From Dechloromonas denitrificans (GTDB lineage: Bacteria; Pseudomonadota; Gammaproteobacteria; Burkholderiales; Rhodocyclaceae), in assembly GCF_001551835.1 (NCBI RefSeq), contig NZ_LODL01000021.1, positions 161,750 to 225,749 of the forward strand: a stretch of DNA of 64,000 nt. The letters are read 5' to 3'. A program made the position numbers and the translations under genes. Position 1 is the first letter of the stretch; each line of letters starts with the position of its first letter. The notes under the pieces are model-generated. The model made no database searches. It was not told where the DNA came from and saw nothing but the letters and a program-made list of their open reading frames with translations. Positions 2,242 through 4,635 of the stretch are shown piece by piece.

Positions 2242-3042
2242 TCAGGCGTTGACGCCGAACAGTTCGGCAAAGGCGGAATGGTTGTGGATCGACTCGAAGT
2301 TCTCCGAAGCCACCTTCCACTCGGCGATGCGCGGTTCGTTCATCAGGCGCAGCGCGATGTCGCGGACCAGATCCTCGACGAACTTCGGGTTGTCGTAGGC
2401 GCGCTCGGTGACCCACTTCTCGTCCGGCCGCTTGAGCAGGCCGAACACTTCGCAGGAAGCCTCCTCCTCGGCGATGCGGACCAGTTCCTCGATGCTCATC
2501 GTCGAACGCAACTTCGCTTCGAGGGTGATGTGCGAGCGCTGGTTGTGGGCGCCGTAGTCGGATATCTTCTTCGAGCACGGGCACAGGCTGGTCACCGCGG
2601 CGACGACGCGCAACGTCAGGCTGGCGACCTGGCCTTCCGGCTGGTCGATGATCAGTGTCGCGTCGTAATCGAGCAGGCTCTCGACGCCGGACACCGGCGC
2701 CGCCTTGCGAATGAAATAGGGGAAAGCCAGCTCGATGCGGCCGCTGCGCGCCTCCAGCCGCAACAGCATTTCCTCGAACATGCGAAACAGGCCATCCTGG
2801 CTCAGTGCGCCGCGCCGGGCTTCGAGCAGTTCGACGAAACGCGACATGTGCGTGCCCTTGACCTCGGGCGGCAAGCCGACCGTCATCGCCAGCGTCGCCA
2901 CGGTATTGAGCAGTTCGCCGTTGGCGGCAGCCAGTTGCAAGGGATAGCGCAGGCCTTTGACACCGACGTTCTGGATGGCCAGGCGACGGGTGTCGGCGGT
3001 GGACTGCACGTCAGGCAGGAAAATATTTTCTGGGGCATTCAT
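2242..3042 (-). CDS. folE2: GTP cyclohydrolase FolE2
   Basis: 266 residues, the normal size for the FolE2 (type IB, COG1469) family, which converts GTP to 7,8-dihydroneopterin triphosphate, the first step to folate and other pterins. The metal/catalytic region is visible around residues 150-175: a CPC pair (C154, C156), [15 protein letters not shown] and HITLEAK. FolE2 is known for tolerating metals other than zinc. It is the second gene of the gpx-folE2-FAD-DUF1365-CFA run, 21 bp after gpx. Its place in a putative LitR light regulon suggests supply of pterins, for instance the folate antenna of a photolyase, but no photolyase is visible in the window. Confidence 0.95.
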
Positions 3043-3063: not shown

Positions 3064-3621
3064 TTACTTGAGGAATTCGTCGATTTTCTTCAGCAGATCC
3101 TTGTCGTCCGGCTTGGTCAGGCTGCTGAAGGAGAGCACCTGCGTCGCCTCGCGGTTGATCAGGTACTTGTGGAAATTCCACTTCGGACGGCTGTCGGTGA
3201 TTTCGTCCAGCTTCAGGTAGAAGGGATTAGCGTTCTTGCCCTTGACCACGCTCTTGCCGACCATCGGAAACTCGACGCCATAGGTCAGGCGGCAGAAGTC
3301 GGCGATTTCCTTTTCCGTGCCCGGCTCCTGCTCGCCAAAATCGTTGGACGGAAAGCCGATGACCACCAGCCCCTTGTCCTTGAGGCGGGCATAGAGCTTC
3401 TCCAGCCCGTCGTACTGTGAGGTGAAACCGCAGTAGCTCGCCGTATTGACGACCAGGATCACCTTGCCGGCGTACTGGCAGAGCGGCATCGGCTTGCCGT
3501 CCTGCAGACTGGCAAAAGTGTAATTGAGCAGGGGCGGGCATTCACCGGCCGCCGCAGCCGGCACGACACCGGCCGAAAGCAAGGTGGCAATGCCGAACCA
3601 GCGTTTGAGTTTGCTAATCAT
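3064..3621 (-). CDS. Glutathione peroxidase family protein, exported (Cys type)
   Basis: 185 residues starting at the ATG at 3621, which has AAGGAG seven bases ahead; a TTG two codons upstream is less likely. Residues 1-26 look like a Sec signal peptide ending AAAAG. The mature part is a thiol peroxidase of the GPx family: peroxidatic Cys64 in NTASYCGFTSQY (cysteine, not selenocysteine), FPSNDFGEQEPG at 90-101 supplying Gln98, and WNFHKYLI at 148-155 supplying Trp and Asn. It should reduce hydrogen or lipid peroxides in the periplasm, probably using a thioredoxin-like donor. It is the first gene of the operon read leftward from the LitR promoter region. Confidence 0.92.
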   Translation of the reverse strand: MISKLKRWFGIATLLSAGVVPAAAAGECPPLLNYTFASLQDGKPMPLCQYAGKVILVVNTASYCGFTSQYDGLEKLYARLKDKGLVVIGFPSNDFGEQEPGTEKEIADFCRLTYGVEFPMVGKSVVKGKNANPFYLKLDEITDSRPKWNFHKYLINREATQVLSFSSLTKPDDKDLLKKIDEFLK

Positions 3622-3639
3622 GTTCAACTCCTTGTTCGT

Positions 3640-3654
3640 TTTGTCCTAGACAAA
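3640..3654. promoter_or_regulatory. Palindromic operator candidate in the litR-gpx spacer
   Basis: A perfect inverted repeat TTTGTC-CTA-GACAAA. It overlaps the -35 element of the rightward (litR) promoter candidate and lies just downstream of the leftward (gpx) start point. The same half-site recurs three more times in the spacer. MerR-type cobalamin photoreceptors bind spaced inverted half-sites in divergent promoters, so this is the natural binding site for the adjacent regulator. Confidence 0.6.
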
Positions 3655-3675
3655 CAGGACGTTTGTTCGTAAGAT
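3647..3675 (+). promoter_or_regulatory. Promoter candidate of litR, overlapping the gpx promoter
   Basis: -35 TAGACA at 3647-3652, 17-base spacer, -10 TAAGAT at 3670-3675. The -10 shares five bases with the -10 of the opposing gpx promoter, so the two face each other and cannot be occupied together. The -35 lies inside the TTTGTCCTAGACAAA palindrome, which suggests autoregulation. Confidence 0.45.
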
Positions 3676-3699
3676 AGTCATCAAAGATTCGTTTGTCAA
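3671..3699 (-). promoter_or_regulatory. Sigma-70-type promoter of the gpx operon
   Basis: Read on the minus strand: a perfect -35 TTGACA (complement of 3694-3699), a 17-base spacer and -10 TATCTT (complement of 3671-3676). The -35 overlaps a TTTGTC half-site at 3692-3697, so a bound LitR protein would block polymerase. Transcription would start near 3664 and read into gpx. Confidence 0.65.
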
Positions 3700-3728
3700 C
3701 GGTTTGTCTAACAATTGTTCAGGACAAA
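3692..3728. promoter_or_regulatory. Second cluster of TTTGTC/GACAAA half-sites
   Basis: TTTGTC at 3692-3697 and again at 3703-3708, exactly 11 bp apart, and the inverted GACAAA at 3723-3728 immediately before the litR start codon. An AACAATTGTT palindrome lies between. One half-site overlaps the gpx -35; the last overlaps the litR ribosome-site area. Probably further LitR-binding positions. Confidence 0.5.
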
Positions 3729-3729
3729 T

Positions 3730-4635
3730 ATGAATACCCCAAGCTTCAACATTGCCGCCGTCGAACGGGATACCGGCCTCTCCAAGGATGTCCTGCGTAT
3801 GTGGGAACGCCGCTACGGATTTCCCGTACCGGACCGTGACGCCAACGGGGAACGCTGCTACCCGGCCGAGCAGGTCGACCGCCTGCGCCTGATCAAACGC
3901 CTGATGGATCAGGGACATCGCCCCGGCAAGCTGATCGCCACCCCCGCCGAAGAACTGACCGCGCTGGCGCCGCGTCGTTCAGCCCCCCGCGACAGCCACG
4001 ATGCCGCCACGGCCGAGGACCTCGGCGAACTGCTGGCACTGATCAAGCAGCACGATGCCGCCGGCTACCAGCAGGCCATGCTGCAGCGCCTGGCCCGCCA
4101 GGGCTTGCAGCGTTTTGTCCAGGACACCGTCGCGCCACTCACCCGGCGCGTCGGCGAGGCCTGGGAAGACGGCAGCTTCGAAGTGTTCGAGGAACACCTG
4201 TTCACCGAGCTGACCAAGCGCCTGCTCCGCCAGGCCATCGCCGCCCTGCCCGGCGGCCCGCGCCGGCCGCGCATCCTGCTCACCAGTGTGCCGGAAGAAC
4301 AGCACGTCCTCGGCCTGCTGATGGTCGAAGCGCTGTTCGCGCTGGAAGGCGCCGAGTGCATCCCGCTCGGCACCCAGATGCCGCTGCTCGAAATCGGCCG
4401 CGCCGCCAGCGCTCACCGCGCCGACATCGTCGCCCTCTCCTTTTCGGTCGCCTTCCCGCAGCGGCAGATTCCCGGCCTGTTGCAGCAATTGCGCCTCGTC
4501 CTGGCACCGGAAATCGCGCTCTGGGCCGGCGGCGGCGGCGTCGCCCGGGTCGCAAAAACAGACGGTGTGCATCTGCTGGTCACGCTGGACGACGCCCTGC
4601 GGGCCTTGCACGACTGGCATGCCGCGCCGCCCTGA
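3730..4635 (+). CDS. litR: LitR/CarH-type MerR regulator with cobalamin-binding domain
   Basis: 301 residues from the ATG at 3730 (AGGA six bases ahead; an in-frame TTG at 3715 is less likely). Residues 5-70 form a MerR-type winged helix (VERDTGLSKDVLRMWERRYG, then RCYPAEQVDRLRLIKRLMDQG). Residues 95-175 are a helical cap with Trp145-x9-Glu155-His156, the signature of the adenosylcobalamin light-sensing cap of CarH/LitR proteins. Residues 180-300 are a B12-binding Rossmann domain with E190-x-H192-x2-G195. In known members the dark adenosylcobalamin form represses and light releases DNA. It is divergent from gpx-folE2-FAD-DUF1365-CFA, the type of gene set such regulators control. Confidence 0.9.
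   Translation: MNTPSFNIAAVERDTGLSKDVLRMWERRYGFPVPDRDANGERCYPAEQVDRLRLIKRLMDQGHRPGKLIATPAEELTALAPRRSAPRDSHDAATAEDLGELLALIKQHDAAGYQQAMLQRLARQGLQRFVQDTVAPLTRRVGEAWEDGSFEVFEEHLFTELTKRLLRQAIAALPGGPRRPRILLTSVPEEQHVLGLLMVEALFALEGAECIPLGTQMPLLEIGRAASAHRADIVALSFSVAFPQRQIPGLLQQLRLVLAPEIALWAGGGGVARVAKTDGVHLLVTLDDALRALHDWHAAPP

Follow-up and report, generated by a model that had tools for sequence, protein, structure and literature searches.

The 108-base spacer between litR and gpx in the window, i.e., the whole stretch of 64,000 nucleotides of Dechloromonas denitrificans DNA that was analysed, is quite likely where a CarH-type (class I LitR-like) regulator controls its own gene; this regulator would repress transcription in both directions in the dark and release it in the light. 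The cell probably holds both directions off in the dark and opens both together in the light. The lines of evidence, all taken from sequence, are two promoters, their operators, the conservation of both, a statistical link to LitR, and the residues of the cobalamin site. On these grounds, it is well supported, by comparison, that a CarH-type regulator represses both directions in the dark.

Overlapping divergent promoters in the litR-gpx spacer

The spacer (3622-3729) separates gpx, which is read leftward (3621-3064), from litR, which is read rightward from 3730. A scan of 3550-3800 for σ70-like promoters yielded two promoters and no third, compared with a mean of 0.1 (sd 0.3) in 50 dinucleotide shuffles. 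The rightward promoter, facing litR, consists of the -35 element TAGACA (3647-3652, + strand), which is also a CarH half-site TnnACA, and the -10 element TAAGAT (3670-3675, + strand) 17 bp after it. The leftward promoter, facing gpx, consists of the -35 element TTGACA (the complement of TGTCAA; 3694-3699, - strand), which is the half-site in the first of the 11-bp repeats described below, and the -10 element TATCTT (the complement of AAGATA; 3671-3676, - strand), and its spacer is also 17 bp. The leftward promoter matches the consensus at 10 of 12 positions and the rightward one at 9 of 12.

Seven bases, TAAGATA, are common to both -10 elements, and the scan thus reveals two opposed σ70 promoters with overlapping -10 elements, the arrangement that defines a bidirectional promoter. 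Read from its sequence, the pair is a set of overlapping divergent (bidirectional) promoters with a common -10. The transcripts are predicted to start about 7 bp beyond each -10, at about 3682 for litR and about 3664 for gpx, so that they would diverge without overlap. The original prediction had described a face-to-face pair. Its two promoters and their overlapping -10 elements were recovered, but they are not face-to-face, since the predicted transcripts run apart, and the strict face-to-face reading was dropped for this reason.

In classical MerR activator promoters, the -35 and -10 elements are 19-20 bp apart. The operator in such promoters lies within the over-long spacer, and no such arrangement was found here. 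With 17 bp in both spacers and the operators placed over the -35 elements, MerR-type activation was rejected. A terminator-like stem on the + strand (3642-3661), over the left palindrome, is at chance level (1 vs 0.5 expected).

Operator elements over the -35 regions

The left operator is the palindrome TTTGTCCTAGACAAA (3640-3654), which contains the litR -35 and lies inside the predicted gpx leader. The genome (4,238,526 bases in 41 contigs) has no other exact match to TTTGTCCNNGACAAA. On the right side, the 11-bp pair TTTGTC-N5-TTTGTC at 3692-3708 is likewise without a second exact match in these 4,238,526 bases and 41 contigs.

This pair belongs to an array of three 11-bp direct repeats on the - strand. 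Repeat 1 (3693-3703; TGTnnA at 3694-3699) has the half-site TTGACA, which is the gpx -35; repeat 2 (3704-3714; TGTnnA at 3705-3710) has the half-site TGTCTA; and repeat 3 (3715-3725; TGTnnA at 3716-3721), which the original prediction did not name, has the half-site TGTTCA. The CarH operator is described as an 11-bp repeat, nnnnTnnACAn (PMC9304148, PMC8156234), and the three tandem units at 3693-3725 are this published repeat (PMC9304148) read leftward. Tandem nnnnTnnACAn repeats that overlap a -35 or -10 element, as expected for CarH or class I LitR, are thus present, with unit 1 coinciding with the gpx -35.

Repeat 3 overlaps the right operator palindrome ATTGTTCAGGACAAA (3714-3728), which is imperfect, with two mismatches to the pattern, and almost abuts the litR ATG at 3730; its AGGACAAAT runs into this ATG. 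The AGGA of ATTGTTCAGGACAAA may also serve as the ribosome-binding site of litR. Boxes on each -35 had been proposed in the form of a perfect palindrome on one side and an 11-bp pair on the other. Both were found again, but the array has three units rather than two, and a second palindrome is added to it.

Elsewhere in the genome, palindrome sites with at most two mismatches gave 60 strand hits compared with 75 for the reversed control, and no additional genomic sites are claimed for this reason. One two-mismatch copy, at 4114-4128 within the litR coding sequence, is probably due to chance.

Conservation across litR loci

The family sample comprised 121 genomes, of which 65 have a LitR match at E <= 0.001 and 50 at E below 1e-30. 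Compared were 53 family loci and 80 named loci (Azonexus, Dechloromonas, Accumulibacter, Zoogloea, Massilia, Ramlibacter, and others), with the family, named, and class sets overlapping in part. These 133 loci were reduced to 132 (one being too short) and to 109 after spacers more than 75% identical had been collapsed, the window's own locus included. The left palindrome core, TGTCNNNGACA, stands at a usable place in 93 of the 109 non-redundant loci, which constitute the anchored rows, and 98 have it at some place between -300 and +60 of the start; the strict palindrome lies within 220 bp in 66 of the 109. The exact core TGTCNNNGACA is absent from -300 to +60 in 11 of the 109 loci, including all four Massilia loci in the set.

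The 16 unanchored loci of the 109 fall outside all of the 93-row counts below. In L045, L146, and L161, a core near the start codon was probably misplaced by the script, that of L146 being just past +60, and in L053 the core is just beyond the 220-bp limit. The left box is one base off the core in L113 and L135, and L078 has one core near its start; none was found in the remaining loci. L078 and L081-L083 (LitR identity 35-44%) look like more distant paralogues.

Measured from the left palindrome, both promoters stand at the same offsets in 69 of the 93 loci (at least 8 of 12 matches, 3 per hexamer), with the litR -10 at +28 and the gpx -10 at +29. When the flanks were shuffled 200 times with the palindrome, and hence the litR -35, kept intact, the corresponding mean was 0.46 and the maximum 3. 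The TGTnnA half-sites are found at +52 in 55, at +63 in 45, and at +74 in 30 of the 93 loci, and at any other offset from 36 to 89 in at most 3. GTCAA occupies the repeat 1 position (+52) in 68 loci. TnnACA is present at the litR -35 offset in 87 of 93, this offset being partly fixed by the anchoring on the palindrome. The right palindrome stands at +74 in 31 of 93 loci, at +63 in 25, and at other offsets in 12, and was not found in 25; its two main places are one repeat unit apart. GGACA is found close upstream of the ATG in 61 of 93.

All three repeats are present in 22 of the 33 loci with LitR identity of at least 65%, compared with none of the 60 below 65%, and repeat 3 therefore seems to have been gained within the clade of the window. 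Identity is 0.74 in the motif columns vs 0.33 in the other columns, a contrast of descriptive value only, because the data compared had also served to choose the motif columns, and the palindrome had been used to anchor the rows.

Promoter-like and box-like matches are common in AT-rich spacers, and all of the elements above might be matches of this kind. Against such an origin stand the exact matches unique in the genome, the 0.1 promoters expected by shuffling, and the fixed spacing conserved in many relatives; given the conserved offsets, chance is judged from the sequences to be very unlikely, with a probability close to nil.

Association of the palindrome with LitR

The palindrome TTTGTCYWRGACAAA was found in 45 of the 121 family genomes, and the reversed control pattern in 1. 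By hand tally, with a Fisher test, the strict palindrome is present in 43 of the 50 LitR-positive genomes (E below 1e-30) vs 2 of the 71 other family genomes. Since most copies adjoin litR itself, copies away from litR provide a fairer test; these were tallied by hand in 13 of the 50 vs 2 of the 71 genomes (p 0.0002).

There are 22 palindrome sites away from litR, and photolyase genes stand beside four of them. Further neighbours, determined by Pfam on 30 of the 36 frames found at these sites plus one litR locus, include FAD oxidases, short-chain dehydrogenases, DUF3429, fasciclin, glutathione peroxidase, FolE2, lipocalin, LytTR, and chemotaxis genes, among others. The single photolyase gene of the window's own genome has no site upstream, as read by eye, and no listed two-mismatch copy nearby.

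The palindromes may alternatively be the site of another regulator, with LitR bound to the direct repeats only or acting elsewhere. The 15-bp palindrome does depart from the classic CarH direct-repeat layout, and it is present in two family genomes without detected LitR. Its half-site TRGACA, however, is the CarH motif TnnACA; the palindrome follows LitR across genomes in the proportions just given; and most of the right palindromes that were found fall on the +63 or +74 repeat. A regulator other than LitR is thus considered quite improbable at these sites. LitR is the preferred candidate for the protein that binds the boxes, and the CarH-like half-sites, the conserved 11-bp periodicity, and the tracking of LitR by the palindrome are in agreement with the proposal, made in the original prediction, that it would repress both directions from over the two -35 elements.

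In L250, a locus from a genome without detected LitR, the palindrome lies at 2501-2515 before a glutathione peroxidase gene; LitR may have escaped detection in the draft, or else the palindrome is used by another protein. In L247, at about 2480-2570, the palindrome, CTAAGAT, GTCAA, and TTGTCCAGG are found between a short-chain dehydrogenase gene and an FAD oxidase gene, a similar layout, so that the two-way operator may serve a second divergent pair. In L232 and L233, from two genomes, the LitR palindrome has LytTR regulator genes next to it (in one case with a PAS domain), a hint at a regulator downstream of LitR.

The LitR protein and its cobalamin site

litR (3730-4635, + strand) encodes a 301-aa CarH-type MerR regulator with a cobalamin-binding domain, as indicated by Pfam, PDB, and fold matches. 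The Pfam domains are MerR_1, B12-binding_2, and, just below the cut-off (31.2 vs 32.1), B12-binding; the MerR-type N-terminal DNA-binding domain matches PF13411 with E 9.8e-14 and 51.7 bits (cut-off 21.6). The best PDB matches are Thermus LitR/CarH, with E values of 1.1e-30 and 1.2e-30, and CarH is the first fold match of the predicted structure (mean pLDDT 86.9). In the fold alignments, LitR is 31-33% identical to the twelve best full-length CarH rows.

The Wx9EH motif is present as W145, E155, and H156, and the equivalents of W131, E141, H142, and H177, by which CarH holds adenosylcobalamin, are conserved throughout, in all 53 family rows and in all 79 named rows that could be read. When compared with the cobalamin motif D/E-x-H-x2-G-x41-S-x-T/V-x22-27-GG, the window LitR has E190-x-H192-x2-G195-x41-S237 and G267-G268, with S239 where T or V is expected. 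Two adenosyltransferase families are found in the genome. With the adenosylcobalamin-contacting residues conserved and these enzymes encoded, binding of adenosylcobalamin and light release by the window LitR are plausible.

The position of Thermus CarH His132 is occupied by Glu (E146), and the His that typically, but not as a defining feature, follows the Trp of Wx9EH is thus lacking in the window LitR. A His at this position was found in none of the 53 family rows, none of the 79 readable named rows (1 of 80 being gapped), and 2 of the 30 class rows; 'many' CarH homologues are stated to carry it (PMC9304148). In Thermus CarH, His132 becomes the upper cobalt ligand in the light, in a bis-His ligation. 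The H132A mutant is described as mostly tetrameric in the light in a study that also mentions an earlier report of the opposite (PMC10442372). CtMerR, a natural CarH-like protein with Arg at position 132, forms monomers in the light and is light-responsive (PMC11796333). The missing His, therefore, does not exclude membership in the CarH/class I LitR group, and light release is plausible but may differ in detail, considering that His132 is absent, that the H132A reports conflict, and that the relative with Arg still monomerises. The CarH-like proteins that naturally lack His132 form a large group, with which the disputed role of this residue in light release becomes directly testable.

The same substitution bears on the signal. 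LitR might repress both promoters but respond mainly to the level of adenosylcobalamin or to redox, with the operon answering oxidative or cobalamin status, as the absence of His132 from all 53 family rows and all 79 readable named rows, together with a stress-like gene set (gpx, folE2, FAD oxidase, DUF1365) without carotenoid genes, would allow. This explanation is rather unlikely: the residues corresponding to W131, E141, and H142, by which CarH caps the adenosyl group, are present in all 53 rows, the same palindrome is found beside photolyase genes at four places, and the Arg-bearing CarH-like protein responds to light (PMC11796333). Moreover, the light regulon of the P. putida LitR proteins is reported to include folE, photolyase, and cryptochrome genes (PMC9758184). 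Light thus stays the preferred input.

Proposed mechanism

Binding, oligomeric state, direction of control, operon structure, and light dependence are what we infer from these data. In the proposed mechanism, one bidirectional promoter with a common -10 would serve litR on the right and the gpx-folE2-FAD oxidase-DUF1365 operon on the left. LitR operators would lie over both -35s, with three 11-bp repeats on the right, the first of them being the gpx -35, and the palindrome on the left, with the litR -35 inside. In the dark, adenosylcobalamin-loaded LitR oligomers on both operators would block RNA polymerase both ways. In the light, the Co-C bond would be broken, LitR would leave, and litR and the stress operon would both be expressed; fresh LitR would then allow repression to be regained in the dark. 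Because each operator is inside the predicted leader of the opposite transcript, it may also hinder elongation or the start of translation.

The three repeats of the Thermus operator leave the fourth DNA-binding domain of CarH idle. In a fairly improbable elaboration, a single dark LitR assembly would span the window's promoter, with three DNA-binding domains on the direct repeats and the fourth some five helical turns away, on the single half-site that covers the other -35, so that the shared -10 would be caged and both directions would be opened by one light event, in a release independent of His132.

Since the -10 is shared, competition between the two directions is possible. The original prediction went further and proposed a competitive switch, in which light relieves both promoters and the polymerases then exclude each other, litR against the stress operon. 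It is true that the -10 elements overlap, so that two polymerases should not sit on both promoters together, and that the arrangement of both promoters is kept in 69 of 93 loci. E. coli bidirectional promoters do compete at high activity, but the five that were studied show no RNA polymerase competition at basal activity, and competition appears at them only once one direction is strongly active (PMC12825309). At one shared promoter there, AcrR acts as repressor in both directions, a simpler logic of co-regulation (PMC12825309). A competitive switch is, therefore, held to be unlikely, though with some chance of being correct, and joint repression and release by LitR is preferred.

Comparison with known systems

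The CarH-type regulator, the 11-bp repeats, the repression over a -35, and the bidirectional promoter are each already known. Thermus thermophilus CarH shares with the window LitR the MerR and cobalamin domains and the Wx9EH and E-x-H-x2-G residues, but the window LitR has Glu for His132 and is 31-33% identical to the twelve best full-length CarH rows. The Thermus operator also has three tandem 11-bp repeats, one of them over a -35 (PMC9304148); in contrast, the window operator flanks a bidirectional promoter and adds palindromes, and the adjoining operon is without carotenoid genes. Myxococcales CarH operators, some of which lie between divergent pairs such as crtI-carH, are similar in having 11-bp repeats of plastic number, full and degenerate (PMC9304148). 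However, no shared -10 is described for them in the available text of that source, and an inverted repeat is described there for the related CarA site (PMC9304148).

In the Pseudomonas class II LitR proteins PplR1 and PmlR2, site 1 similarly lies over a -35 and site 2 between the start site and the ATG, and the regulon in P. putida, with folE, photolyase, and cryptochrome genes, recalls the genes found here (PMC9758184). Unlike the window operator, their sites are TGTACA-N12-TGTACA; unlike the window LitR, these proteins are judged unable to bind cobalamin, and a LOV protein relieves the repression (PMC9758184). One promoter direction was studied there (PMC9758184). E. coli acrR/acrA resembles the window in its overlapping -10 elements, with a repressor gene on one side and repression of both directions by AcrR, but it is without a light sensor and belongs to a different regulator family (PMC12825309).

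The combination of operators on both flanks, absence of His132, and occurrence in many Betaproteobacteria was not found in a literature search, a weak negative with partial coverage in which subscription papers are mostly outside. A search on LitR, betaproteobacteria, photolyase, and light also found no paper, again a weak negative of partial coverage. If the reading is true, the CarH-type operator would reach beyond carotenoid clusters, into a stress operon of Betaproteobacteria (among them relatives of Azonexus, Dechloromonas, and Accumulibacter), and its clear consensus would make candidate regulon members readable from genomes. The spacer would also represent a natural repressor-controlled bidirectional promoter with a switchable light input; the control of bidirectional promoters is described as hardly studied (PMC12825309).

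Genes divergent to litR

Four genes on the - strand probably form the leftward operon, gpx-folE2-FAD amine oxidase-DUF1365. The first, gpx (3064-3621, start codon 3621-3619), encodes a glutathione peroxidase (GSHPx, E 9.9e-35). It is followed by folE2 (2242-3042), encoding a GTP cyclohydrolase (PF02649, E 1e-86) and divergent to litR in some relatives too, by the gene of an FAD amine-oxidase-like protein (909-2231; PF01593, E 2.4e-19), and by that of a DUF1365 protein (140-901; PF07103, E 4.4e-74).

Among the 88 loci scanned, with the window included, the first gene divergent to litR encodes a glutathione peroxidase in 32 and an FAD amine oxidase in 17, and many of the 88 gave no Pfam match. 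The other 5 of the 93 loci had no divergent reading frame, the frame finder being crude. Of the 53 family loci, 41 have an FAD oxidase gene and 39 a DUF1365 gene divergent to litR; some of the others are contig ends or paralogues.

At the far end of the operon, the DUF1365 stop overlaps the start of a minC-like gene (ATGA, 140-143), with a minD-like gene next in the same direction, outside the window. Because of this overlap, the stress operon may continue into the genes for inhibitors of cell division. LitR identity is at least 66% in six family relatives, and in four of them (L032, L035, L036, and L037) DUF1365 is likewise followed by a minC-like match.
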